Shown: positions 1,525-12,651 of the stretch, piece by piece
Layout: each line of letters begins with the position of its first letter
Numbering within the stretch: the stretch's first letter is position 1
Assembly: GCA_031291715.1 (NCBI GenBank)
Contig: JARLIN010000034.1
Coordinates: 1-34,990, forward strand
Reading direction: 5' to 3'
Length of the DNA: 34,990 bases
Source: Rhodopila sp.
GTDB taxonomy: Bacteria; Pseudomonadota; Alphaproteobacteria; Acetobacterales; Acetobacteraceae
The notes under the pieces: generated by a model
Database searches by the model: none
Told to the model about the DNA's origin: nothing
What the model saw: only the letters and a program-made list of their open reading frames with translations
Translations under genes and position numbers: made by a program

Positions 1525-2559
1525 CTAGGTTCCGACGTGAGGGAACGGCTCGTACGGCTGCGCTGGCTCCTGCAGGAACACCTGCTCGATGTGGTGCCCC
1601 GATGCCTCGGCCAGCGAACGCGCCATTGCGGGCAATTCCGTCTTCGCACGCTTGTAGTCGTCCATGCCGATAGGGTCAGGTGTTTCCGGTGCGTCGATAC
1701 GGGCCAAATTCTCCTTGCCAACAAGAAGGCCCGCTTGGCCGAGGGCATTGAGCGACTGAGCACGCATGGCGGCGCGAATGGCATGGCGCCAGCTCACGAT
1801 GCCTCCGGTCGCGCGGGACGCGTCGACTTTGAAGGACGTCTCTCCGCAGCCGAGGCTCAGGATCTGAATCTGGTGGCGTTCTATGTCGAAGCACGACAAA
1901 GCTTCAGTGACCGCGTTCATGACCGGGTTGTTGGCCCAAAGTCCTCCGTCGACCATCAGGTAGCCGTTGTTCGGGACCGCTCGTAGATAGGTGGGTGCCG
2001 CAGATGTGGCCAAGGCCACGTTTACCATCCGCTCGAACCTGTCCTTCTTATAGTCAGGGTGATGTGGCGTCTTGAACAGCCAGATGTCGCCATGAACGCC
2101 TTCGAAGCTTGGGATACACAGGCGTGTGCGAGCATCACCGAGCGTTGTCTCGCCGAAGACAGTCAAAAGCTCCTCATGCAGAGCCTCGCTGTCATACCCA
2201 TGCCTGTGGAAACGGCGAGCCTTACGCCACAAGCGCACCAGAGCATTCGGATTGGGGAATACCCTGTCGTCGCGGTCCACGAAGAAGTTCCGAATGGCGA
2301 CCGCTGTCAGGCCATGGGCAAGACCTAGGGCGATGATACCGCCAGTTGATGTTCCTGCGATGAGGTCGAAGTACCCAACGATCGAGTTGCCGCTGAGGAA
2401 GCGGGTCTCGAGCTCCGCCAGCAAAGATGATGGGAGAATGCCGCAGATGCCACCTCCGTCAATGGACAGGATCCGGAAGGGTCGATCGGCAGGCCAGGGC
2501 AAGACCTGACGCCGATGCTGGAGCGTACCGTCCGAGCGGCGCGGTGGAATGTATGTCAT
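1525..2559 (-). CDS. Patatin-like phospholipase, CBASS effector (CapV-like)
   Basis: A 344-residue patatin-family acylhydrolase. Landmarks are the oxyanion-hole glycine motif DGGGICG (about residues 34-40), the nucleophile elbow GTSTGG with Ser71, and the DGG motif with catalytic Asp204 (VDGGLWANNP). There is no signal peptide or membrane segment, so it is probably a soluble enzyme acting on the inner membrane. In CBASS, CapV-type phospholipases are switched on by a cyclic dinucleotide and degrade membrane phospholipids, killing the infected cell. Its ATG overlaps the stop of the E2-like gene by 4 bp (ATGA), so it is translationally coupled as the third gene of the operon. The genomic partnership with a CD-NTase makes the effector role likely; the activating nucleotide is not visible. 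Confidence 0.9.
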   Translation of the reverse strand: MTYIPPRRSDGTLQHRRQVLPWPADRPFRILSIDGGGICGILPSSLLAELETRFLSGNSIVGYFDLIAGTSTGGIIALGLAHGLTAVAIRNFFVDRDDRVFPNPNALVRLWRKARRFHRHGYDSEALHEELLTVFGETTLGDARTRLCIPSFEGVHGDIWLFKTPHHPDYKKDRFERMVNVALATSAAPTYLRAVPNNGYLMVDGGLWANNPVMNAVTEALSCFDIERHQIQILSLGCGETSFKVDASRATGGIVSWRHAIRAAMRAQSLNALGQAGLLVGKENLARIDAPETPDPIGMDDYKRAKTELPAMARSLAEASGHHIEQVFLQEPAQPYEPFPHVGT

Positions 2560-3077
2560 GCAGCTTTCCTTTCGCGTCGGCCACGACCGCCACCCGGGGT
2601 GGTTCCTCGGCAGTTGTCCTGGTCGCCCGAGTCATCGTCGATCGGATGCACCCCGCCGCCTTTCCAATCATCGGAGACGAGCCACTCTTCGAAGAAGTAG
2701 AGCCAGAGCGCGGCCCACGGGACGAGCGTGTTGGCGATAAGCAAGCCACCGTGCCATTCACCTGACGATGGGAGATAGAGGCAAAGGCGAATTGGCGACT
2801 CACTGTAGACGTGAGGAAGCTTTCGGCCTTCGGCCAGGGCGACCAGATCGGGCTGGTCGACGAACACCTTCGGCCTGCCACCCTCCTTGAACTCCACACG
2901 CGCGGTGTAGATTCGACTAAGGGCGGAAGGCGCGACCTGCCAAGTCCAGGTGAGCTGCCCTCGGCCCAGTACCCCGCGACCCTCACATACAGGGTTCAAA
3001 CGCAGAGCCAAGTATTGCTGTGCAGCCGATAGATTTCGACTTTGCCGCCAGCGCACCCTTACCTCACTTCCTGCCAT
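2556..3077 (-). CDS. Stand-alone E2-like protein of a short type II CBASS
   Basis: A 173-residue protein between the CD-NTase and the phospholipase. The central part has the look of a prokaryotic E2-fold protein: RIYTARVEF strand region (about 55-63), a candidate catalytic cysteine Cys99 in RLCLYLP, then a WHGG...WAALWLYFFEEWL helix and GGGVHP near residue 145. The rest of the C-terminus is rich in Gly, Arg and Asp and looks disordered. E2-only CBASS operons of this order are known, where the E2 protein controls CD-NTase activity through its cysteine. No E1, adenylation or JAB deubiquitinase-like gene lies in this operon. The ATG at 3077 overlaps the CD-NTase end by 14 bp. The family call rests on context as much as on motifs. 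Confidence 0.75.
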   Translation of the reverse strand: MAGSEVRVRWRQSRNLSAAQQYLALRLNPVCEGRGVLGRGQLTWTWQVAPSALSRIYTARVEFKEGGRPKVFVDQPDLVALAEGRKLPHVYSESPIRLCLYLPSSGEWHGGLLIANTLVPWAALWLYFFEEWLVSDDWKGGGVHPIDDDSGDQDNCRGTTPGGGRGRRERKAA

Positions 3078-4278
3078 AGAAGGTGTTCAAGCGAATCGGG
3101 GTTGCCCGCTGTGCAGCTGTAACCGCCGTCACGATGCCGATTTTGGGAGCGACAGCGAGCATCCGGTCTCGGCGGGCCGCGTTGACCTCCTCGGCCATAG
3201 CTGTGACCACTTGGTTCATAGGCTGGCTCCCAAATGCCTGCGCCAAGCTCTTGGTGACGCGATCGTTCCCCTCGAGCTCAGTGAGATGCTCAACATCGGC
3301 GAGAATACGGCCATGCCATTCGGAGAACGCCGCAGCGCGCTCCGGGTGGAGGTTCCACTTTTCTGCAAAATTCTCGCCTTCAGTCGTCTCGTTGGCGATG
3401 CGCCACTGGGGCTTGCCATACAGGGTGTAGGTTTCGATGAAATAGGGCATGGCCCGCGCCACTGCGAGCACCACGTCGAACTCGCTGTCGAACACGTATC
3501 TACCGACGCAGAATTCGTACGCCTGAGCGGCCAATGTCGTCAGGATCACCGAGATGGGACGGAGCGACTCATCGGCGTTCTCGAAGTAGATGTCCCGGTG
3601 GCGCTTCAGCAACTGCACGATACGGCGAAGGATGCCCTTGAAGCCCGTGTGCTCCGGGAATGGATCGACGGTGCCGCGACTGTCCATCGCGGCGAACGAC
3701 TTGAGGACCCGCATCGTTGGCACGAGCGCCGCCCGCTTCTCGAAGAGCTTGAGGTAGCCGCTTGGGTTGGTCGGCTTCCAAGCACGCAGTTTCTTGTCCG
3801 GTACAAGCTCACCGCCATTCAGGCATGCCGGGTTGGGGATGGACGGAGTGATGTCCATGTGGAACTCGCCCGCGTAATCAAGCCGCCAGCAGCGCGGCTT
3901 CTCGTGCAGGATAGAGCCGTACTTCCAGTTCTCACGGATGCGGGCACCCAGAACCCGCTTGAGGTCGGCTGGACCGGAACGTCCGGCGAAGGCGGTGAAG
4001 CGGCACAGAAGGTCGACATCGTATTCAAGGCCGCTCAACGGCTTGATGGCGGTCCCAAGGGCAAAGGACCCCTGGGGGGAGATCCTGGCTGCGCTGAACA
4101 GATACTGGGGCGCATCGGCCAACCAGCGGCCGACAGCCTCATACCTGTCCCTGGCGGTCACCTTCTGTGTGTCCGTCGGTTCGATCACGGTGCAAAGCCG
4201 CTCGAGGATGCCGACGGCTCCGTTCTTCCGCAACTGCATGCGGTCGGAGGGACGAGAGAAAGGCGTGAGCGCGTTCAT
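3064..4278 (-). CDS. CD-NTase, CBASS cyclic-nucleotide synthase
   Basis: A 404-residue cGAS/DncV-like nucleotidyltransferase that would sense phage infection and make a cyclic di- or trinucleotide second messenger. The active site is readable: GS at 70-71 (PQGSFALGTAIKPL), the paired acids Asp87 and Asp89 (YDVDLLCRF) and the third acid Asp142 (MDITPSIP). The remaining C-terminal part is helical. It is the first gene of a three-gene minus-strand operon and has a clear AAGGA Shine-Dalgarno just upstream of ATG 4278. The C-terminus ends ...FYGRK rather than in a bare glycine, which matters for how the E2 partner would attach. I cannot assign the CD-NTase clade or the product from sequence alone. 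Confidence 0.92.
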   Translation of the reverse strand: MNALTPFSRPSDRMQLRKNGAVGILERLCTVIEPTDTQKVTARDRYEAVGRWLADAPQYLFSAARISPQGSFALGTAIKPLSGLEYDVDLLCRFTAFAGRSGPADLKRVLGARIRENWKYGSILHEKPRCWRLDYAGEFHMDITPSIPNPACLNGGELVPDKKLRAWKPTNPSGYLKLFEKRAALVPTMRVLKSFAAMDSRGTVDPFPEHTGFKGILRRIVQLLKRHRDIYFENADESLRPISVILTTLAAQAYEFCVGRYVFDSEFDVVLAVARAMPYFIETYTLYGKPQWRIANETTEGENFAEKWNLHPERAAAFSEWHGRILADVEHLTELEGNDRVTKSLAQAFGSQPMNQVVTAMAEEVNAARRDRMLAVAPKIGIVTAVTAAQRATPIRLNTFYGRK

Positions 4279-4403
4279 GTTTTGTCCTTAGTGGCGCTGG
4301 TGCTGCCCAGCGGACGTGAAAACCCGTCAAACAACGATGGCCGTGACACCCGCCTTGCGACGACGAGCGGCAGCGCCCTATCATCCCATGCGGTCGGGGG
4401 AAC

Positions 4404-4472
4404 CCGATTTGGACATGCTGGAGGGATTTGCCAAAATATTTGCTGCCCTGATGACTGCGATGTCCAAATCGG
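4404..4472. promoter_or_regulatory. 13-bp inverted repeat between CBASS and the sigma-like/ImmA operon
   Basis: A perfect 13-bp inverted repeat, CCGATTTGGACAT at 4404-4416 and ATGTCCAAATCGG at 4460-4472, with a 43-bp spacer that contains an AT-rich core (CCAAAATATTTG, 4431-4442). It lies in the 219-bp gap between the divergent starts at 4278 and 4498. The two arms could be paired operators for a dimeric regulator controlling one or both operons. The arms are directly visible; the function is inferred. Confidence 0.55.
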
Positions 4473-4497
4473 ACACGCCGGGCCGCATAGGGTTTAC

Positions 4498-5145
4498 ATG
4501 GGCGATCGGATGGAACGATTAGAAGCGAGGACGTCTCATAGCAGGGCCGACTTCGAGTGCGCTATGTCGAAGCTCAGCGCCGCTGACCTCGTCAGGCTGA
4601 AGCGGGTGGGTCTGAAGTATTCAGGCGGCTCCGGGATGTCGCCTGATGAGCTACTGTCTGAGGCATATGTCAGGGCAGCAGCGAACAGTCGCAACTGGCC
4701 AGTGGGGGTCAGCGTTGTGCGGTTCATGGCCGAGGCCATGCGCAGTATCGCGGGCGGAGCACGAGCATCTGTTAAAGCGGAGGCGCGCAATACGCTTGTC
4801 GCTATGCGGAGCGCCCAGATCGCCGACTCCGACGCAGAGGCTGTGGCCGACCAAAGTGGAGTGGTCATTGATTTCATCCCTCCTTCGCCGTCGTCGGAGC
4901 AACGGTTGATTGACAGCGAAGATGCTACAGCCAATGCGTCTCAGCTTTCGAAATGGCGGCAAGAACTTCTCGATCTGTTTGCCGATGACTACCAAGCGCA
5001 ACTGATTGTGGAAGGCATGATGGACGGTATGCGCGGTAAGGAGCTCCAGGAACTGGCAGGTCTGAGCGGCGCGGAGTTCCCGACGAAATACAAGAAGGTC
5101 AGCAGGCGCATCGACGCGCTGACCGCCGAGAGGAGGCAGTCGTGA
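4498..5145 (+). CDS. Sigma-70-like / HTH regulatory protein
   Basis: A 215-residue protein from ATG 4498 (ATG 4510 is an alternative start; neither has a strong Shine-Dalgarno). Residues about 35-85 (SPDELLSEAYVRAA, then a WP...VVRFMAEAMRSIAGG segment) resemble sigma-70 region 2, and the C-terminal third (GMRGKELQELAGLSGAEFPTKY...) resembles the region 4 helix-turn-helix of small sigma-like proteins. It would bind DNA or RNA polymerase. It starts a three-gene plus-strand operon, overlapping the next gene by 4 bp, and is divergent from CBASS. The same frame is open far upstream to 2950, but that part is antisense to the CD-NTase and is not coding. Confidence 0.7.
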   Translation: MGDRMERLEARTSHSRADFECAMSKLSAADLVRLKRVGLKYSGGSGMSPDELLSEAYVRAAANSRNWPVGVSVVRFMAEAMRSIAGGARASVKAEARNTLVAMRSAQIADSDAEAVADQSGVVIDFIPPSPSSEQRLIDSEDATANASQLSKWRQELLDLFADDYQAQLIVEGMMDGMRGKELQELAGLSGAEFPTKYKKVSRRIDALTAERRQS

Positions 5146-5534
5146 ACAATCCGACCGAAAAGGATAGGCTCGCAATCCTGAAACTTGAGGACGCGCTGGT
5201 GGATGACTTATTGGCCATGTCGGACAACGAACTCACGGCTGATTCCCGCGAGATCGGCATGGATGTGGAGCAGGAAGCTATGCACGTGCGGCAGCTGCTC
5301 GAACGCACCGCCGGAAAGGCGAGAATGGCTGCCGCGAAAGCAGAGTTGGCGGAGTACCATGCACGTGGGGCGTTGCACGCCCGAGGGGCTGGTGCCCGGC
5401 CCTCCAATGATCTGCGAGAGGCACGGCTGACCTTGGCAGCCCGAAATGGGACCGACCAGACCGAGGCTGACATCAAGAGCGTTGCGGAGGACCTGGCAGA
5501 GCTTGCAGCCTTCGAGGACAAGTCTAAGAAGTGA
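5142..5534 (+). CDS. Small helical protein of the sigma-like/ImmA cassette
   Basis: A 130-residue acidic, helix-rich protein with a GTG start that overlaps the previous stop by 4 bp (GTGA) and a GAGGAGG Shine-Dalgarno 7 bp upstream. The N-terminal part (LEDALVDDLLAMSDNEL) and the long alanine- and glutamate-rich middle look like coiled-coil segments. No catalytic motif is seen. I recall similar small proteins next to ImmA/IrrE peptidases in alphaproteobacteria, without a known function. Its place between a sigma-like protein and a metallopeptidase suggests a structural or adaptor part of a regulatory trio, or the peptidase's substrate. Confidence 0.65.
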   Translation: MNNPTEKDRLAILKLEDALVDDLLAMSDNELTADSREIGMDVEQEAMHVRQLLERTAGKARMAAAKAELAEYHARGALHARGAGARPSNDLREARLTLAARNGTDQTEADIKSVAEDLAELAAFEDKSKK

Positions 5535-6325
5535 CGGAGTTATCAGCGGCCGAACGATTGTTGCAGTCACTTGGAGTCCACGGTCCCGAGGACATAGACC
5601 TTCACGCAATCGGCTGGCACCTCGGGGTCATCGATATCAGGGAGCGCGAAGTCGAGGGATGTGAGGCCCGAATCGTTGGCCGTGGCAGTAAGGCTATCAT
5701 TAGTGTCAAAATAGGCGGCAATTGTCATAGGCGGCGATTTTCAATTTGTCATGAACTTGGGCACTGGGTCTTCCATCGTGGCCAGACGCTTTACTGCAAG
5801 GCTATAGACATTCGCGACCACGAGGTCACCCAAGCGAAGGAGAAGGTGGCCAACGGCTTTGCATCGGACCTGCTCCTGCCACCCTACCTACTGTCCCCTG
5901 TTGTTCAGGATTTTAAGACCATCGACGTTGGGACAATTCGGGAGATTGCCCGACGCTTCGACGCCAGTATGTCTGCGACGGCAATCAAACTCGTGAGGTC
6001 AGGCTTAGTAACCGGAATGATCGTCTGTCACGGAACGGCGGGGAAACGATGGCATATGCCTTCGCCACAGGTTCCTCCTGCTTGGTATCCGAAGGCCGAA
6101 TTGGATCAGAGCAGCCCGGCCTTCGACATGCTGTTCTCCGTACGCCAAGATCAGCCAACGGCAAAACGCGTAGGTGCCCACCTCTGGTTCGAACGACGCG
6201 ATGCCGATCTGTTTCAGATAACAGAGCAATCGTTCAAGGTTGCCGAAGCAGAGGTTTTCACGCTCCTCACGTTCGGCGACCAGAGAATGCTCGACGTACC
6301 CGGCCTGGGTGGAAGGTGGTCGTAG
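5531..6325 (+). CDS. ImmA/IrrE-family metallo-endopeptidase
   Basis: A 264-residue putative zinc peptidase. The HExxH motif is HELGH at 74-78 (SICHELGHWVFH), and the third ligand is probably Glu104 in EKVANGFASDLLLPP, matching the E-x-x-AN-FA-x-LL-x-P pattern of the family. ImmA-type enzymes cleave a partner repressor to switch on a mobile element or defence operon. The GTG start overlaps the previous gene by 4 bp, so the three genes are coupled. Lying divergent from CBASS, it is reminiscent of the CapH/CapP regulators of some CBASS systems, except that the likely DNA-binding partner here is sigma-like. Residues after about 160 are unassigned. Confidence 0.88.
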   Translation: MTELSAAERLLQSLGVHGPEDIDLHAIGWHLGVIDIREREVEGCEARIVGRGSKAIISVKIGGNCHRRRFSICHELGHWVFHRGQTLYCKAIDIRDHEVTQAKEKVANGFASDLLLPPYLLSPVVQDFKTIDVGTIREIARRFDASMSATAIKLVRSGLVTGMIVCHGTAGKRWHMPSPQVPPAWYPKAELDQSSPAFDMLFSVRQDQPTAKRVGAHLWFERRDADLFQITEQSFKVAEAEVFTLLTFGDQRMLDVPGLGGRWS

Positions 6326-6796
6326 GGTCCCCTGGGACGCAGGAGGTGTGTCGCGTTTGAAGGGTAGACAAATTTTATCGGAGCAGTTGGTCGAGACGCT
6401 TCAGCACTCAGATAAATGAGTGCCTGAACATTTCGTGCTTGACGTTCGGCGCTCGCCATCTGCGCTGCTTATAAAACGAACTTGCTTTTTCGAGATCTTC
6501 TCAAATCCGCATATTATTGAACCCAGTGATATTGTCTGTTATCTTGGTGTCTACGTTTCAAAACTGCTGGCCCGCTAACGGCCAACGCTCGCCGGCAGGA
6601 GTTGGCTGAAACCGCCTCCCAATGTTTGCTCCTGGAGGAAGTGAGGCGCATCCTCTAATCAGCCCGGTTCGGCCATTGTTTGGTCGAACCGAGCCTCTGC
6701 ATCACTCCACGTCACGCGAAATCCTCTATTTTCGAACGGGGAACGGATCCTTACCGCGCGATCCGGCCACAGGGCCATGGCCGATTGAGTCTCGAT
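6326..6796. other. Intergenic stretch with one hairpin
   Basis: No convincing gene in 471 bp; local composition is more AT-rich than its surroundings. It contains a hairpin at about 6400-6428: TTCAGCACTCA, loop GATAAA, TGAGTG-C-CTGAA with one bulged base. It lies 75 bp after the peptidase stop and may be a terminator for that operon, although no T-run follows it. The stretch separates the defence block from the ICE block and could be a junction. Confidence 0.4.
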
Positions 6797-8551
6797 CTAT
6801 TCGATCTCCAATCCCCGGTCCCGTCCAAGCGTCCAATCGGCCGATCGACCGCGCTGGGTGACTGAGATTTCCTGACCCAGGGCTCGTTCGACGTCCGGAC
6901 GCCATGGCACCAGGCTGAATTCGTGGCTGACTTCGTCGGCGATCAGCACAAATCGACCGGACGCCAGATTGATCCGACGCTGGTAGATTCCAGCGACGCA
7001 CTCCCCGTCCTTGATCGGACGGAGCGCCAAGCCCGTCTTTTCGGTAATCGCTTGTGCGATGTCGGCGAGCTCACGACGCTCCAGGGTGCCGAGGAGATCG
7101 GAGGCGAAGACGACCTGACGCCCGCGCCGCACCACGAGGTCCTCCTCGATCAGGTGATCGACCCGGCGGTCGAGGGCCTCGCGGACCTCGGCACCAAAGC
7201 CGGTCGGCGCCAGCACGCTCTTCTCACGACCGACCAGTTCGCGGTCGAGCCAGGTCGCACCGCTGGCCGTTACCTGACCATTGAGCGACAGATCGGAAAG
7301 CACCCGCAGGCTCGGCCACTTCCCCGACCGACTTGCGGTGGCTCGCACCACGCCGCCTTCCGGAATATCGCTCAGGTCTACCGCGGGGCCCAGCCGCACG
7401 TAGTGTGACCGTCCGTCGATGCCCTCGACGATGAGGTAAGACTTGCCAGCGAGCTCGTCGTCCAGTCCCTTGGCGACCACGCGGCCGATCACAGGCTGCT
7501 CGGGGCCGGTGACCGCGTGGATCGCTGCATCGCCGGCATCCTGGCCAAGCGAGTGGTTCATGATGCGGATGATGTCGCCGCGCGTCCCGAGTTCCCGTAA
7601 GGCCGGTTCGGCGTCGTCCGCCAGCCTCCATTGCGCGGGCCCCATCGGCCGCGCCAGGCCCATGGTCTCAAGCCGCTGCAGGCGTCCGATCAGCAGGCTG
7701 CGGATCTGCCGGTCGTCGGCAATACCGTCACACTCCGGCCGCATGTCGATGACGCCGCCGTCCCGGGCGGCGGCGATCCGTCGCAGGGTGCGATCGAGCT
7801 GGGTCCAACGTTCCTCCACCACCTCGCCGGCGAGCTTGGCACGGATCTCGTGCTCGGCGCGCGGCCCGAGTTCGATGGTCGCCAGGTCCTGCGCCCGGGC
7901 GCGCATCCCCCGGCTGATGTACTCGCGGTGGATGACAAGATCGTGCCCGTCGTCGTTCTTCCCGCGGACGATCAGGTGGACGTGGGGATTGTCGGTGTTC
8001 CAGTGGTCCACGGCGATCCAGTCGAGCGTGGTGCCGAGGTCCCGTTCCATCTCATGCACGAGGTCCCGGGTGTAGGCGTGGAGGTCGGTCAGGTCCGCCG
8101 CGTCTTCCGGACTGACGATGAACCGGAAGTGGTGGCGGTCGCCAGCCGCTTGCCTGGCGAAGGCACTGGCATCGGCGTGCTCGCCGTCGGCGTTGAACAT
8201 GCGTGCCGGTTCGCCGTCGCGGGTAACGCCCTCACGGCGGAGATAGGCGAGGTGTGCGGTCAGGGGCGCCATGCGCGGGCCATGGCGGACGATCCGCGCC
8301 TTGACCACGACGCGCCGGTTGCGTTCGGCCAGCAGGCTTCGGCCGGCGCGCCACGCGGCGACGCCACCGCGGCCTGAAGACGGACGAGTGGGGTGGGCGG
8401 GATGATCGCCGTGGCCGCTTCCGAAGCCGGCGCGTTCTTTCGCGGCGAGCACGTTGGCGAGGGCCAGCTTCGGGTGACGGTCGGCACGCGCCTGGCCAAG
8501 CTTGGGCCGGAGCCGCCGCTCCTCGGCGCCGGTATCAGGGCCGCGGCGCAC
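6797..8551 (-). CDS. Relaxase/mobilisation nuclease with DUF3363 (RlxS/VirD2-like)
   Basis: The relaxase that would nick the ICE at oriT and lead the strand into the recipient. Before the catalytic region comes an Arg-rich leader (RRLRPKLGQ, then NRRVVVKARIVRHG). The HFRFIVSPEDA strand and the metal-binding HUH motif HWNTDNPHVHLIVRG follow, roughly at residues 140-197. A tyrosine in AYLRREG is a candidate nucleophile. The C-terminal two thirds (about 350 residues) correspond to DUF3363. I chose the GTG at 8551, which follows AGGGGG by 5 bases and fits the family's N-terminus; the frame is open to 8629. Family members are usually 600-670 residues; this is about 584. It is the last gene of the minus-strand transfer block here. 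Confidence 0.88.
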   Translation of the reverse strand: MRRGPDTGAEERRLRPKLGQARADRHPKLALANVLAAKERAGFGSGHGDHPAHPTRPSSGRGGVAAWRAGRSLLAERNRRVVVKARIVRHGPRMAPLTAHLAYLRREGVTRDGEPARMFNADGEHADASAFARQAAGDRHHFRFIVSPEDAADLTDLHAYTRDLVHEMERDLGTTLDWIAVDHWNTDNPHVHLIVRGKNDDGHDLVIHREYISRGMRARAQDLATIELGPRAEHEIRAKLAGEVVEERWTQLDRTLRRIAAARDGGVIDMRPECDGIADDRQIRSLLIGRLQRLETMGLARPMGPAQWRLADDAEPALRELGTRGDIIRIMNHSLGQDAGDAAIHAVTGPEQPVIGRVVAKGLDDELAGKSYLIVEGIDGRSHYVRLGPAVDLSDIPEGGVVRATASRSGKWPSLRVLSDLSLNGQVTASGATWLDRELVGREKSVLAPTGFGAEVREALDRRVDHLIEEDLVVRRGRQVVFASDLLGTLERRELADIAQAITEKTGLALRPIKDGECVAGIYQRRINLASGRFVLIADEVSHEFSLVPWRPDVERALGQEISVTQRGRSADWTLGRDRGLEIE

Positions 8552-8800
8552 GGGGTCCCCCTGGTGAAGCATGCCGTGCCGAAGACACTGAGGAAATCGG
8601 CCGAGTTCGCGGATCGGCCAGCACCCCACCGATTTCCCGGCACTGTTTGGAGTGAAGCAAAACGGCGGCTTCCACCCCCAACCAGGCGGCCGACGGCACC
8701 GCCTTTAATCTTGCTGTCGCTCCAATCAGGACTTCAGCACACGGCTCCCACCGCACACCGCCGCCGATCCTGCGCCAACGTTCTCCAGCCATGCCATCGC
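8552..8800. other. Gap upstream of the relaxase, candidate oriT region
   Basis: A non-coding 249-bp gap between the transglycosylase and the relaxase. It contains ATCCTGC at 8767-8773 on the plus strand, which matches the ATCCTG|Y nic core known from P-type (RK2/Ti) origins of transfer. A six-base match is easy to get by chance, and no strong flanking inverted repeat is visible, so this is a candidate only. Confidence 0.25.
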
Positions 8801-9598
8801 TCATGAACCGCTCCGCACCGGGTGCAACGTGACAGACAGGCCGGCTTCTGCACCACCGCCGAACAGTTCGGCCGCACCATGACGGGCACTCGGCCGGTCA
8901 CCGGAGGGAACGACGGGATGCACGTCGACGGCAGCGAGTGTGCTCGGAATTGGCGCGAACAGACCGCTGCTGGCCGGCATGTCCGCCTGCATCTGCGCTG
9001 CCGACTCTTGCGCCTTGATCTCGCCAAGACTGGGCAGTTCCGCGGCTGGAGCACTTCCATGCATCTGCTCAGCGACAAGCTGCGGGCGGAGCAGCGACAC
9101 GTAGCGCCGCGTCTCGTCCGGCAGCGGGCGTCCGGTCAGGAGATGGTCGTCGAGACGCGCGGGACCGGCATTGTAGGCAGCAAGAAAGTTGGGCGAGCCG
9201 TAGCGGTCCAGCAGCTCGCGCAGGTACGCAACGCCGCCCAGAATGTTGTCGTGCGGCTCGTACGGATCGGCGCCGAGGCTGTAGCGGCGGCGCAGATCGA
9301 CCCAGGTCGCCGGCATGATCTGCATCAGCCCCATGGCGCCGGCCGGCGAGGTGACGGAGGGAATACCGCCGCTCTCGGCGCGCATGACTGCGCAGACCCA
9401 TCGCTCCGGAATCCCGAACCGCTGCGCCGCAGCGGCGATCTCCGGCAGCCATCTGTCGACCAGTGCTTCGTGCCCGACTGGTGCGCTCGACGGTTCGGTC
9501 GCCGCAGAAAGCGTGCAATCGGGCTGCACCTGGAAGGTCACGAAGATTGGCGAACGCAGAGCAAGACCGCAGGCCACGGCGAGCGTCACGAGATCCAC
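8801..9598 (-). CDS. Lytic transglycosylase, SLT domain (conjugation type)
   Basis: A 265-residue peptidoglycan-cleaving enzyme that would open the wall for the transfer apparatus (VirB1/TrbN-like role). The N-terminus is hydrophobic (LVTLAVACGLAL), consistent with export. The SLT fold is complete: catalytic Glu75 in AESGG, GAMGLMQIMPATW (87-99), NILGGVAYLRELLDRYG (118-134) and AYNAGP (141-146). The C-terminal 100 residues are low complexity and rich in Ala, Pro and Ser. The GTG start at 9598 is preceded by GGGAGG. It lies between the TraF peptidase and the relaxase, a common order in alphaproteobacterial ICEs. Confidence 0.9.
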   Translation of the reverse strand: MDLVTLAVACGLALRSPIFVTFQVQPDCTLSAATEPSSAPVGHEALVDRWLPEIAAAAQRFGIPERWVCAVMRAESGGIPSVTSPAGAMGLMQIMPATWVDLRRRYSLGADPYEPHDNILGGVAYLRELLDRYGSPNFLAAYNAGPARLDDHLLTGRPLPDETRRYVSLLRPQLVAEQMHGSAPAAELPSLGEIKAQESAAQMQADMPASSGLFAPIPSTLAAVDVHPVVPSGDRPSARHGAAELFGGGAEAGLSVTLHPVRSGS

Positions 9599-9713
9599 GG
9601 AAGCCAGCCTCCCAATGCATGAAAATGGCGATCGACGAATCGTACGATCCAGGTGCCACCGTGCTCGCTGCGGTCAAGGCAACCGCGCGGGGGCGCCGGC
9701 GGCCGTTGGCATG

Positions 9714-10244
9714 TCAGCGCGCTCCCGGCGTCCAGAGCGGGATCGCCCGACCGATCACCGAAGCGGTCGGCGTTGGCCCGAAATACCGCCCATCGAGCGA
9801 GGCTGGCACGTCCGCCATCAGCAGGAAGATTTCCTGATCGCCGAGCCTGCAGCAGCCGTTCCAGGCCGCGAGTGGCCGCCCGCTTCCGTCCATGGTCAGC
9901 ACGTCCGCGACATGCCGGCCGTCGATCGACACTACCCCATTGTGCTCGCACACGAGCTGGCCAGCAGTCGCCGCGATGCGTTTGAGCAGCGGCACGCCGA
10001 GCGGAAGATAGCCTCGTTGCCCGTAGAGTTTCGCGCTGGCGGTATCTGGTCGCACGACCACCAGGTCGCCGACCCTGAGTGGCTCGTCGCCGGCCGGTAG
10101 CACACGGTAGAACCCGATCGGCGCGCTTGCCGTCGCGTTCCAGATGAGCAGCGGATGTGCGCCGATGGCCGCGGATGCGGCCAACAGGGTGACGCCCACC
10201 AGAATGCCACCGAGCGCCAGCCGGCGTGAAAGCCGCGTGCTCAT
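9714..10244 (-). CDS. traF: TraF-like S26 signal peptidase (conjugative transfer)
   Basis: A 176-residue membrane-anchored serine peptidase. One N-terminal transmembrane helix spans about residues 10-30. The catalytic dyad appears as Ser40 in ATASAPIGFYRVLP and Lys88 in VPLLKRIAA, followed by the strand region DGSGRPL and a C-terminal YFGP motif (about 154-157). TraF of this type matures pilin or other transfer proteins. Its ATG overlaps the stop of the DUF2840 gene upstream by 4 bp, so they are coupled. It has the usual length for the family. Confidence 0.9.
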   Translation of the reverse strand: MSTRLSRRLALGGILVGVTLLAASAAIGAHPLLIWNATASAPIGFYRVLPAGDEPLRVGDLVVVRPDTASAKLYGQRGYLPLGVPLLKRIAATAGQLVCEHNGVVSIDGRHVADVLTMDGSGRPLAAWNGCCRLGDQEIFLLMADVPASLDGRYFGPTPTASVIGRAIPLWTPGAR

Positions 10245-10714
10245 GCCTCACCACGGGCACGGCGGAGCCAGGCATTGTGCTGGTCGGCACGGTAGAGGCG
10301 TGGCTGCTGACCACCGGCGATCCGGTTGTGCACATGCCGCCAGTACTCAGGCGCCACGTTGGCTGGCTCGATGCCGGATTGCTCGATCGCGGTGATGAGA
10401 TCGAGCACCCGCTTGACCCGTGGCCAGCCGGAGAGCCGCAACAGGATGTCGCCGCCAGGCGTCACGCCGGGCACGGTCGAGATCGGCTCTCCGGTGTTGC
10501 AAGCGCGCACGATATCGATACGCGAGAGGAGGGTGCCGTGCTCGTTACCCTCCCACCGCACGAAGCCGAACACGGTGCCGGGGGCGAACAGGATCAGCCG
10601 GCGGCGGCGGTCGAGAATCCGCTCCCCAGCATCGCGGCCGAAGCGCAACCAGCGCTCGATCCGGTCGCGGTAGAACACCAGTTCGACCGTCGTGAGGGGC
10701 GTCGTCTCGGTCAT
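10241..10714 (-). CDS. DUF2840 domain protein
   Basis: A 157-residue protein I recognise as DUF2840, a family found almost only in alphaproteobacterial ICEs between the ParA/RHH genes and traF. Typical segments are VELVFYRDRIERWLRFGR at the start, FGFVRWEGNEHGT, and PGVTPGGDILLRLSGWPRV. The C-terminus contains APEYWRHVHNRI. The role is unknown. It overlaps both neighbours by 4 bp, so the RHH-DUF2840-traF genes form one translational chain. Confidence 0.85.
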   Translation of the reverse strand: MTETTPLTTVELVFYRDRIERWLRFGRDAGERILDRRRRLILFAPGTVFGFVRWEGNEHGTLLSRIDIVRACNTGEPISTVPGVTPGGDILLRLSGWPRVKRVLDLITAIEQSGIEPANVAPEYWRHVHNRIAGGQQPRLYRADQHNAWLRRARGEA

Positions 10715-10977
10715 GACGCTGTCTGCCCCGGATCGTCCGAAGGACCCCCGAACCGCTCGTCGAGCAGCGTGCGGAGCATGTCGGCGACGGTGATGCCGCG
10801 TTCGAAGGCGGCCACCTTGATGCGGCCACGCAGCGCCGGCGTGATGTCGATGGTGAGCCGCGCCGTGTAGGTCTCAGCCTTGGACGGTGCGATGGCGTCA
10901 TCCCGACCGGTGTCGACCCAGCGCTCGGCGGCGTCGCGCGGGCGGGCGCGGATCAGCTTTGTCGCACGTCCCGTCAT
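10711..10977 (-). CDS. Ribbon-helix-helix protein partnered with ParA
   Basis: An 88-residue basic protein. The C-terminal half ([36 protein letters not shown], about 37-72) has a strand then two helices, as in ribbon-helix-helix DNA-binding proteins; the N-terminus is Arg-rich. It overlaps parA by 4 bp and is a good candidate for the centromere-binding partner and autorepressor of the ParA system. A ParG/CopG-like role is inferred from position. Confidence 0.75.
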
Positions 10978-11612
10978 GGTACGAGCCGCCGCAACTCAGC
11001 GGTCAGGGCGGTGACCTCACGAGCAGCAGCGCAACGCGGGTCAATTTCGGCTGCCAGCATCCCCGAGCCCGCGGTCTCAGCGAATATGACCCGCTGCGCC
11101 AGGCTCGCCTCCAGCGCAGGAATTTTGAGCTCGGCGACGGCATGCCGCACGTCCCGCGCGATCCGGGTGCCGACTATGCGGCGGTTGACGACGAACCGCG
11201 CGCGCAGCGCGGGATTGTAGACTGCGGCTTCACGCACAAGGTCGAGCACGACCTGGCTTGCCCAGATGTCGAATGCCGAGGGTTGGACCGGCACCAGGAC
11301 CAGTTCGGCCGCGAGCATGGCCGAGCGCACCAGTGCAGTCGTGCGCGGCGGCCCGTCGATGACGACGTGATCGACCGGGCGTGCAAGGTCGGGCACTTCC
11401 CGATGCAACGTCTCACGCGCGAGGCCGACGATGCCGAACAGCCGTTGTCGTCCGTCCCGCACTCGCTGCTCGGCCCAATCGAGGGCCGAGCCCTGCGGAT
11501 CGGCATCGATCAGAAGCACGGACGCGCCTTGCCGTGCGAGCTCGCCGGCGAGGTGCAGCGCGATCGTTGTCTTGCCGGCGCCGCCTTTCTGCGTGAGTAC
11601 CGCGATGATCAT
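10974..11612 (-). CDS. parA: ParA-family partition ATPase
   Basis: A 212-residue Walker-type partition ATPase. It has the deviant Walker A KGGAGKTT (9-16), [11 protein letters not shown] (36-46) as the A' motif and DHVVIDGPP as Walker B. It is short, without the N-terminal HTH of ParA type Ia, so it probably relies on the RHH partner for DNA binding. I chose ATG 11612 ([11 protein letters not shown]); the frame opens 10 codons earlier, but this start puts Walker A at the usual place. It would keep the excised, possibly replicating form of the ICE in the cell line. Confidence 0.92.
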
Positions 11613-11652
11613 CGCGGCACCGCGCGCGGCAACAGAAGACACTCACCAACAA

Positions 11653-11687
11653 AGACTCTAGTCAGATTCTTAAGAGTCAGAGAGTCT
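11653..11687. repeat. Nested inverted repeats between parA and repA
   Basis: AGACTCT at 11653-11659 can pair with AGAGTCT at 11681-11687 and also with AGAGTC at 11673-11678. AGTCAGA also occurs twice (11660-11666, 11676-11682). The cluster sits 40-75 bp upstream of parA. It may be the binding site of the RHH protein (operator/parS-like) or part of a replication origin. Confidence 0.4.
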
Positions 11688-11799
11688 GGAGATTGCCGAA
11701 TCGTTGTGACGCAATGGTTTGCCAGCCAGTTGGCACCTCGATATGCCGTGGATTTACGTCCGTTACGCCGATAGGGCACGTCCGATCTGCCGAGCGGAT

Positions 11800-12651
11800 T
11801 CACAGACGCACTCCCCGGTTTTGTGGATAGAATGCCGGCCTATCCCCAGGCACTGCCGCGGCACTGTGAAAGGACTCGGCAGATCGAACGGCGTGAAGGC
11901 ACTCCTCGCCATCGCGCCAAACGATGCTGAGCGTGTACCCAGGGAGTACGTTTCTGCGCGCGATCTTGCGCAGCTCTACGACGAAGTCAGTGGCGCGAGC
12001 GAGGCTGCCGGAGCGGGCATGGAGAGTGGCGAGTGGAATTTTCCAACTTGTGGATATCCCATGAGCGTGGCGGCAAAGCAGCCGCCATAGCCAGCGCTCG
12101 ATGGCGCCCGTCAGGCGCAGATAGGCCGGCGGGACGCGAAGGACGCGGCGGCGTTCGGTGACAGTGGCCAGCAGCCAGTCCGGGACAACGATGATCAGCC
12201 CGGCGTTGCCGTGTTCCCAGCGCTCGATCCAGTGGAACCGGGCCGGTGCGCTAAGCGCCGCGCCGATGCTGGTCTCGACATGGGTGCCGGCCAGCCGTTC
12301 CAAGGCGGCCGTGAGCAGCGCGTACTGGCTGCGTCCCGTACCACGCCCGAGAAATCGGAGAACCTGAAAACCGGATGTCAGCAAAGCCGGGGAAACGTGA
12401 AGGCGGCGGTCACGTGCCTCTGCGAGCTGTGACACCGCCCAGGTGAGGATATCGGCATCCCAGATGGTGGCGAGGCCGCGTGCCCCCGGGAGAGACGAAA
12501 CGCGCATGAAGTCGCCACGGTGTTCGTGGATGATCGGCACGTGTCGCGGCCCCTTGGTCAGCGCGAAGCATGGCCAGGCCATGAGGTCGATGGCGTCGCG
12601 CAACCGCACACCATCGAGGGGAGCCGGGAGAGAACGCGGCGGTTCCATCAC
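11800..12651 (-). CDS. repA: Replication initiator protein A (RepA)
   Basis: A 283-residue protein of the replication-initiator RPA family used by alphaproteobacterial plasmids and ICEs. Recognisable parts are the N-terminal RDAIDLMAWPCFALTKGPR, the YxHRG-like region with GLATIWDADILTWAVSQL (about 58-75) and the RLAGTHVETSI segment, followed by winged-helix-like sequence (LTGAIERWLWRLLCRHA). It would start replication of the circular form. It overlaps the small HTH gene upstream by 4 bp and lies 187 bp upstream of parA, whose gap carries inverted repeats. Confidence 0.88.
   Translation of the reverse strand: MMEPPRSLPAPLDGVRLRDAIDLMAWPCFALTKGPRHVPIIHEHRGDFMRVSSLPGARGLATIWDADILTWAVSQLAEARDRRLHVSPALLTSGFQVLRFLGRGTGRSQYALLTAALERLAGTHVETSIGAALSAPARFHWIERWEHGNAGLIIVVPDWLLATVTERRRVLRVPPAYLRLTGAIERWLWRLLCRHAHGISTSWKIPLATLHARSGSLARATDFVVELRKIARRNVLPGYTLSIVWRDGEECLHAVRSAESFHSAAAVPGDRPAFYPQNRGVRL

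Follow-up and report, generated by a model that had tools for sequence, protein, structure and literature searches.

A putative self-amplifying sigma/anti-sigma/protease switch divergent from a CBASS operon in Rhodopila sp.

The DNA analyzed here, called the window, is a stretch of 34,990 nucleotides (nt) from Rhodopila sp. (GCA_031291715.1, contig JARLIN010000034.1, positions 1 to 34,990), in which a minus-strand operon of a cyclic-oligonucleotide-based antiphage signaling system (CBASS) is faced by three plus-strand genes. These encode an extracytoplasmic function (ECF)-type sigma-like protein (gene 1), a small helical protein (gene 2) and a CapP-like metallopeptidase (gene 3), and their coordinates are given in Table 1. 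The trio is conserved, the gene 1 family is homologous to sigma factors, a pair of promoter-like elements is located between the two operons, and defence genes recur as neighbours. We consider it rather likely that the trio forms a self-amplifying sigma/anti-sigma/protease switch for the immune island, in which the sigma activity, the binding of an anti-sigma, the cleavage and the trigger would be those proposed below.

The gap between the two operons contains an inverted repeat with 32-nt arms. Comparison of this gap among 93 loci (cited below by our own numbers; the duplicates L101, L039 and L040 and loci with no more than 330 nt upstream were left out) revealed two outward-pointing asymmetric copies of an element, TGTCCRA-N15/16-[CA]GC[AC]TA, one per operon. 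The reading of the whole as one long inverted repeat, that is, a single operator, was rejected because the copies lie anywhere from 6 to 178 nt apart, whereas the spacing within each of them hardly changes. The element was scored in 70 loci, dereplicated at 70% gene 1 identity and excluding L090, L099 and loci with a short upstream region, using leave-one-locus-out matrices. Both copies scored above 10 in 59 of the 70 loci; this score was exceeded by 1.3% (plus copy) and 2.6% (minus copy) of shuffled sequences, and in a control scan inside gene 1 by 0/70 (plus) and 3/70 (minus). In these 59 loci, 13-72 nt lie between the end of the element and the estimated start of gene 1, and the internal spacing of the element differs by about one base. 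Moreover, the two copies of a locus resemble each other in motif (13.69 of 16, against a maximum of 12.07 in 5000 partner permutations) and in having equal spacers (0.90, against a maximum of 0.76).

Since the sites in the matrices came from iterating on the same loci, loci fetched later provide a cleaner test of the element. These were 25 gene 1 loci, of which 15 carry all three genes and 10 lack the peptidase (L138, L140-L143, L194, L197, L199-L201). Nine trios (L145, L189-L193, L195, L202, L203) were new, having a gene 1 at most 80% identical to that of earlier loci, and include the close pairs L192/L193 (97%) and L202/L203 (99%); L187, L188, L196 and L139 (gene 1 100% identical), L198 (91%) and L144 (contig edge) were left out. 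Both copies scored above 10 in seven of the nine new trios, all outside the matrix, and in four of the ten loci without the peptidase (L138, L194, L197 and L199). In the 6.24-Mb genome to which the window belongs, the pattern TGTCCRAAT-N12-16-GCATRG matched exactly twice, at the two elements of Table 1, and its reversed control had zero matches; judging from this pattern, the regulon of the sigma factor in its own genome is probably the island alone. A -35/-10-type promoter before its own operon, as expected for an ECF sigma factor, can therefore be observed as a sequence pattern. It is very unlikely, in our estimation, that the paired element is instead the site of another host regulator or sigma factor, with gene 1 only as a target: gene 1 could indeed be no more than that, but the matches in its own genome are confined to the gap, and the element accompanies gene 1 in different phyla and on plasmids, including the four loci without the peptidase just named.

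The sigma-like, DNA-binding nature of gene 1 claimed in the original prediction holds at the level of the family, although the window's protein alone matches no sigma model. The family profile matches the Mycobacterium tuberculosis ECF sigma factor SigH (PDB 5zx2; 1.3e-6; profile positions 39-167 of 193 against SigH 49-177), and a search at E<=0.1 detected Sigma70_r2 in 28 of the 53 members (best 6.7e-6); homology to regions 2 and 4 is thus present at the family-profile level. The family consensus preserves a region 2.2-like segment, DDLLQEAxxRAL; in sigma factors, region 2.2 contacts the core polymerase. The predicted structure shows two helical domains (predicted local distance difference test score, pLDDT, 90.2; predicted template modeling score, pTM, 0.54), and the top five Foldseek matches, none of them significant, are chains of transcription complexes, three of which are titled for a sigma factor. 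A profile search across the order gave three strong matches and many weak ones, the latter presumed to be ordinary ECF sigma factors. No homology was found when genes 1 and 2 were compared with each other.

Alternatively, gene 1 could have lost its sigma activity and act as a CapH-like repressor at both elements, cleaved by the peptidase on DNA damage, with gene 2 as an accessory adaptor. In the available text of PMC13373217 and PMC9122588, the target of CapP is a repressor, CapH, and repression is also the mode of action of CapW and CapS; in addition, gene 1 is so divergent that the window's protein gives no Pfam sigma match. We nevertheless hold this explanation to be unlikely, given the asymmetry of the elements, their -35/-10-like blocks, their almost constant spacer and the position before gene 1 described above, given that the sites of CapW and CapS are, in those texts, palindromes, and given that the region 2.2-like segment is kept. 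A CapH homolog was also sought among all three proteins and rejected, as none matched a helix-turn-helix (HTH) repressor family in Pfam, PADLOC or NCBIfam. Gene 1 is best read, from its family homology and its elements, as a working ECF-type sigma factor, that is, an activator and not a CapH-like repressor.

Gene 3, already predicted to encode a metallopeptidase, matches Pfam Peptidase_M78 (1.4e-13) and PADLOC capP (1.1e-51, residues 6-248), and the best PDB match of its family profile is CapP (7t5t, 2.9e-17). Residues H74, E75, H78 and E104 are invariant in 14 relatives, the first three lying in the HELGHW motif (HExxH), so that the gene encodes an M78 peptidase homologous to that of the CapH+CapP system. 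Because the capP model spans gene 3 nearly end to end, such peptidases have probably been filed as CapP earlier. According to the available parts of the sources, CapP is activated by single-stranded DNA (ssDNA) and cleaves CapH (PMC13373217; PMC10904395), and PprI binds ssDNA and is activated by it (PMC10904395); by analogy with CapP, gene 3 is probably triggered by ssDNA too. Gene 2 is a candidate anti-sigma. Near its C-terminus, 50 aligned relatives share the conserved segment LTxAARxG...SDxD...LxDLxELG, its predicted structure is helical (pLDDT 76.8), and it overlaps gene 1 by 4 nt in 77 of 96 loci (starts picked by script), an operon-like layout. No convincing match to gene 2 was found in Pfam, in PDB or by fold.

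The gene 1 loci without the peptidase bear on the role of gene 2. In L138, L197 and L199 the sigma gene is followed by one for a protein of 80-97 amino acids (aa) that matches only positions 1-61 of the gene 2 profile (20-22 bits), and in L140 and L200, which carry one shortened gene 1, 88% identical to that of L197, the match is limited to positions 11-57; the C-terminal motif of gene 2 and the peptidase are both absent from all five loci. Retention of the N-terminal part of gene 2, with loss of the C-terminal motif together with the peptidase, is as expected if the N-terminal half holds the sigma factor and the C-terminal half serves the peptidase. Gene 2 was undetected in L141, L142, L143 and L201. 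We regard as quite improbable the explanation in which the sigma factor is the activator but is itself degraded by the peptidase, which would then be an off-switch, gene 2 protecting or targeting the sigma factor. The present evidence does not fix the substrate, and gene 2 is unlike known anti-sigmas; however, the disappearance of the C-terminal motif where the peptidase is gone and the sigma factor is present suggests gene 2 as the partner of the peptidase, and the M78 relatives CapP and PprI, in the available accounts, cut an inhibitor of the response.

The switch that we favour would operate as follows. The ECF sigma factor encoded by gene 1 would recognize the two divergent copies of the element and, when free, transcribe the trio operon and CBASS jointly. 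Gene 2 would bind and silence the sigma factor through its N-terminal helical half, and gene 3, once triggered, would cut gene 2, most likely in or near the conserved C-terminal segment. The trigger would most likely be ssDNA arising from DNA damage or phage replication, as for CapP and PprI. The released sigma factor would raise the level of all three trio proteins and of CBASS, and when the trigger fades, fresh anti-sigma would reset the switch.

Three coupled genes facing away from CBASS had been described in the original prediction, and this arrangement was found again in other genomes, which speaks against a chance order. In a genome scan with an alignment of the peptidase, of which the best 80 of 333 relatives were kept, genes 1 and 2 lie directly upstream of the peptidase in 77 of the 80; gene 1 was missing from L054 and L068 (contig edge) and L094 (absence or error), and is partial in L090 and L099. 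On plasmids, gene 3 is also present in 16 of the 17 records encoding gene 1. According to record titles, the hosts are Alpha-, Beta- and Gammaproteobacteria, Desulfuromonadaceae/Geobacter and Acidobacteria, including Terriglobia. The trio is rare: at E<1e-30, 3 of the 299 genomes searched in the order have a strong match to gene 1, and at E<=1e-12 so do 4 of 385 in the class and 5 of 398 in the phylum. Each count includes the window's own genome and is a lower bound, since few candidates per genome were scored. Among the other genomes with strong matches that were examined (G854 was left out), the peptidase was present only in G240 and G618. A search centred on one 8-Mb genome found gene 1 in 19 of 120 genomes, and 12 of the 17 loci fetched were full trios. 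The trio as phage cargo was considered and rejected, as only two (L144 and L145) of 31 peptidase relatives on viral contigs carry it. The remaining 29 have neither gene 1 nor gene 2, and in the 1.3 kb upstream of their peptidase none scored above 10 on both strands and six did so on one strand.

The genes opposite the trio were classified in 96 loci as ubiquitin-like conjugation (33), small-ORF (open reading frame) cassettes (26), CBASS (25), Pycsar (5) or none of these (7), using phmmer against seed proteins taken from the divergent sides of the same loci; borderline classes (e.g. L031) may be misfiled. Thus 63 of the 96 loci face CBASS, Pycsar or ubiquitin-like conjugation operons, the opposite of a trio occurring mostly without defence neighbours, which would have told against a link to defence. 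Of the 96 loci, 89 have the listed families on the divergent side and none has them upstream on the plus strand; downstream they occur in 1 of the 84 loci with more than 3 kb there. This one-sidedness is partly built in, most of all for the small-ORF class, because the seeds came from the divergent sides. Independently of the seeds, product names in the records show 9 of 16 annotated plasmid loci facing defence genes, namely CBASS in L002, L009, L011, L014 and L017 and ThiF/E2/multiubiquitin genes in L004, L010, L016 and L019. Additionally, PADLOC identified a Pycsar operon in L012 (cyclase, E2 and TIR effector), a CBASS with TRIP13 and two HORMA proteins in L020, and a CBASS with a 2TM effector in L034. 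Of the 12 full trios in the gene 1-centred set, nine are opposite CBASS, two opposite ubiquitin-like genes and one opposite a small-ORF cassette; four of the 12 duplicate an earlier locus or closely resemble one. The set also has five loci without the peptidase, of which L194 alone has genes of these kinds (ubiquitin-like) opposite. On the tree of the trio, the class of the opposite operon changes at least 21 times; the switch has therefore been exchanged between systems.

These neighbours also bear on whether the trio controls CBASS or is an independent unit, both of which had been proposed. The neighbours and the paired element, which on sequence evidence appears to join the trio and the defence operon, support control. 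The least probable of the explanations weighed here is that the trio works on its own, as a defence or toxin-antitoxin-like unit, and merely adjoins CBASS: 26 of the 96 loci have only small ORFs opposite and 7 have none of the listed families, but the divergent position of these families, with the reservation about seeds given above, and the common promoter-like element facing both operons stand against it. With slightly better than even confidence, we propose that several kinds of immune operon have a private sigma factor, silenced by an anti-sigma that a CapP-like peptidase triggered by DNA damage destroys, the whole being an all-or-none, positive-feedback cassette exchanged between defence systems. 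With the same confidence, we count among these operons CBASS with E2, E1-E2 or HORMA/TRIP13, Pycsar with E2, ubiquitin-like conjugation operons and small-ORF cassettes.

It is important to mention several observations that weigh against the proposed switch. The window's gene 1 protein by itself matches no sigma family in Pfam, PADLOC or NCBIfam, all its fold matches in Foldseek are non-significant (E>=0.14), and Pfam, PDB and fold searches with gene 2 gave no likeness to a known anti-sigma. In 11 of the 70 scored loci at least one side falls below the threshold, L202 and L203, 99% identical full trios opposite CBASS, are without a recognizable plus element, and the element pair is absent from L140/L200, L141, L142, L143 and L201; the diverged trio branch of L202 and L203 may rely on a different promoter sequence. 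Shared ancestry accounts for part of the likeness between the two copies of a locus: when phylogeny was controlled for, independent pairs over three traits were concordant in about 9.2 cases, neutral in 5.8 and opposed in 0, too few pairs for any trait to be significant. Finally, a leader of about 100 nt separates the -10-like box of the CBASS copy from CBASS.

The closest known system is CapH+CapP, in which CapH is an XRE-type HTH repressor. Both have a homologous peptidase beside a CBASS promoter, proteolysis as the presumed trigger and a module common to several defence systems. Unlike CapH+CapP, the trio has an ECF-type sigma-like protein, with no match to an HTH-repressor family, and an extra small protein in place of CapH, as well as two asymmetric promoter-like elements, so that activation and not derepression would be expected. 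The ECF sigma/anti-sigma pairs released by regulated proteolysis, such as sigma-E/RseA, likewise combine a sigma factor and its inhibitor (here a candidate) in one operon, an autoregulated promoter and release triggered by a protease; the trio differs from them in having a soluble CapP-like peptidase in the same operon, an adjacent immune operon as output, and a gene 2 without similarity to known anti-sigmas. In PprI/IrrE-DdrO, an ssDNA-activated M78 peptidase also destroys a transcriptional brake (PMC10904395, in its available part), the brake DdrO being a repressor, whereas that of the trio is a candidate anti-sigma whose element occurs just twice, at neighbouring sites, in the genome of the window. 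As far as the available text of PMC13373217 goes, the DNA-damage controllers of immune operons are CapW/BrxR, CapH+CapP and CapK+CapS. CapW/BrxR and CapK+CapS resemble the trio in acting at the promoter of the operon, beside CBASS, Bub and others, but their proteins are unrelated to it and CapW and CapS are described there and in PMC9122588 as repressors bound to palindromes. In the available part of PMC12839542, a sigma-like domain is mentioned in BrxL only. Our literature search, which was shallow for most matches, gave no link of a sigma factor to CapP or to the control of CBASS, Pycsar or Bub.

The trio looks like the activating counterpart of the Cap controllers, which work by repression; what is new here is a divergent gap with two back-to-back copies of one asymmetric element, one per operon. 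The proposal bears on how lethal immune operons stay off and are then switched on fast; the dedicated controllers described in the available text of PMC13373217 and PMC9122588 are repressors. If the proposal is true, a private sigma factor would give a switch-like, self-reinforcing induction, and the paired element would be a DNA signature for finding undescribed defence operons; candidates are the small-ORF and the methyltransferase genes that recur on the far side of the element. The genes, like the elements, are small and can be tested in E. coli.

Table 1. Genes and promoter-like elements of the trio and the CBASS operon (window coordinates).
Feature	Position	Strand	Remarks
Gene 1, ECF-type sigma-like protein, 211 aa	4510..5145	+	alternative start 4498
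Gene 2, small helical protein, candidate anti-sigma, 130 aa	5142..5534	+	N-terminal helical half and C-terminal motif
Gene 3, CapP-like M78 metallopeptidase, 264 aa, HELGHW motif	5531..6325	+	Pfam, PADLOC, PDB
Element facing the trio: TGTCCAAA - spacer - GCATAG	4461..4490	+	promoter-like
Second copy, facing CBASS: TGTCCAAA - spacer - GCATGG	4386..4415	-	promoter-like
CBASS cGAS/DncV-like nucleotidyltransferase (CD-NTase; SMODS/DncV-like)	3064..4278	-	Pfam SMODS 3.4e-14; PADLOC Cyclase 1.7e-111
CBASS E2-like protein	2556..3077	-	PADLOC E2 3.2e-51
CBASS patatin-like phospholipase effector	1525..2559	-	NCBIfam CBASS_lipase 8.2e-71, exceeds model cut-off

As shown in Table 1, the three plus-strand ORFs, all open, overlap successively by 4 nt (5142-5145 and 5531-5534). 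The left boundary of the module had been placed at 4404, which lies inside the intergenic gap and is not the start of gene 1. The ATG at 4510 is a likelier start than 4498, because the Met that it encodes is invariant among 17 aligned relatives of gene 1 and because a start at 4498 would follow the -10-like box at 4485-4490 with hardly any leader. On the opposite strand, a type II-short CBASS consists of a CD-NTase, an E2-like protein without E1 and an effector, and the operon from 4278 to 1525 has this composition according to Pfam, PADLOC and NCBIfam. Weak sigma-70-like promoter matches can be observed on the plus strand at 4355-4384 and 4410-4437 (0.7 expected in 4150-6450); basal transcription is therefore possible. 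No RNA element was matched in an Rfam scan of 4200-6700.

Some of the loci opposite which other genes were found deserve a separate description. An E2-like protein lies between the cyclase and the TIR effector of Pycsar in L012 (by PADLOC) and in L077, L079, L089 and L092 (by similarity). The multiubiquitin-E2-ThiF-DUF6527 operons are tentatively equated here with the Bub operons of PMC13373217. The small-ORF cassettes (92 aa, 86 aa, DUF2188 and DUF3892) that face the element in 26 of the 96 loci, for example in L035 (760-1310), L006 (4844-5359) and L061 (5316-5850), are candidate new defence components; in L002 and L028 a 92-aa gene is found with CBASS genes as well.

Among the loci without the peptidase, L138, L197 and L199, which keep both elements, have a methyltransferase opposite, isoaspartate-methyltransferase-like in L197 and L138 and similar by eye in L199, and are possibly a non-defence branch of the same switch. 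Their short gene 2-like proteins end in RH. In L194, a diverged gene 2 (11 bits) is followed, in the place of the peptidase, by a gene for a 451-aa protein (6007-7362), opposite ubiquitin-like genes. This protein has no Pfam, NCBIfam or convincing PDB match and is present in one of 60 related genomes, its own; its start, by eye, may resemble that of proteasome-type N-terminal nucleophile (Ntn) hydrolases.

In the window, CBASS and the switch seem to be carried on a mobile element. Downstream of the trio, the region 6797-12651 contains a DUF3363 relaxase-like gene (Pfam) and, on visual inspection of the ORFs, genes resembling those for a transglycosylase, TraF, ParA and a replication initiator.

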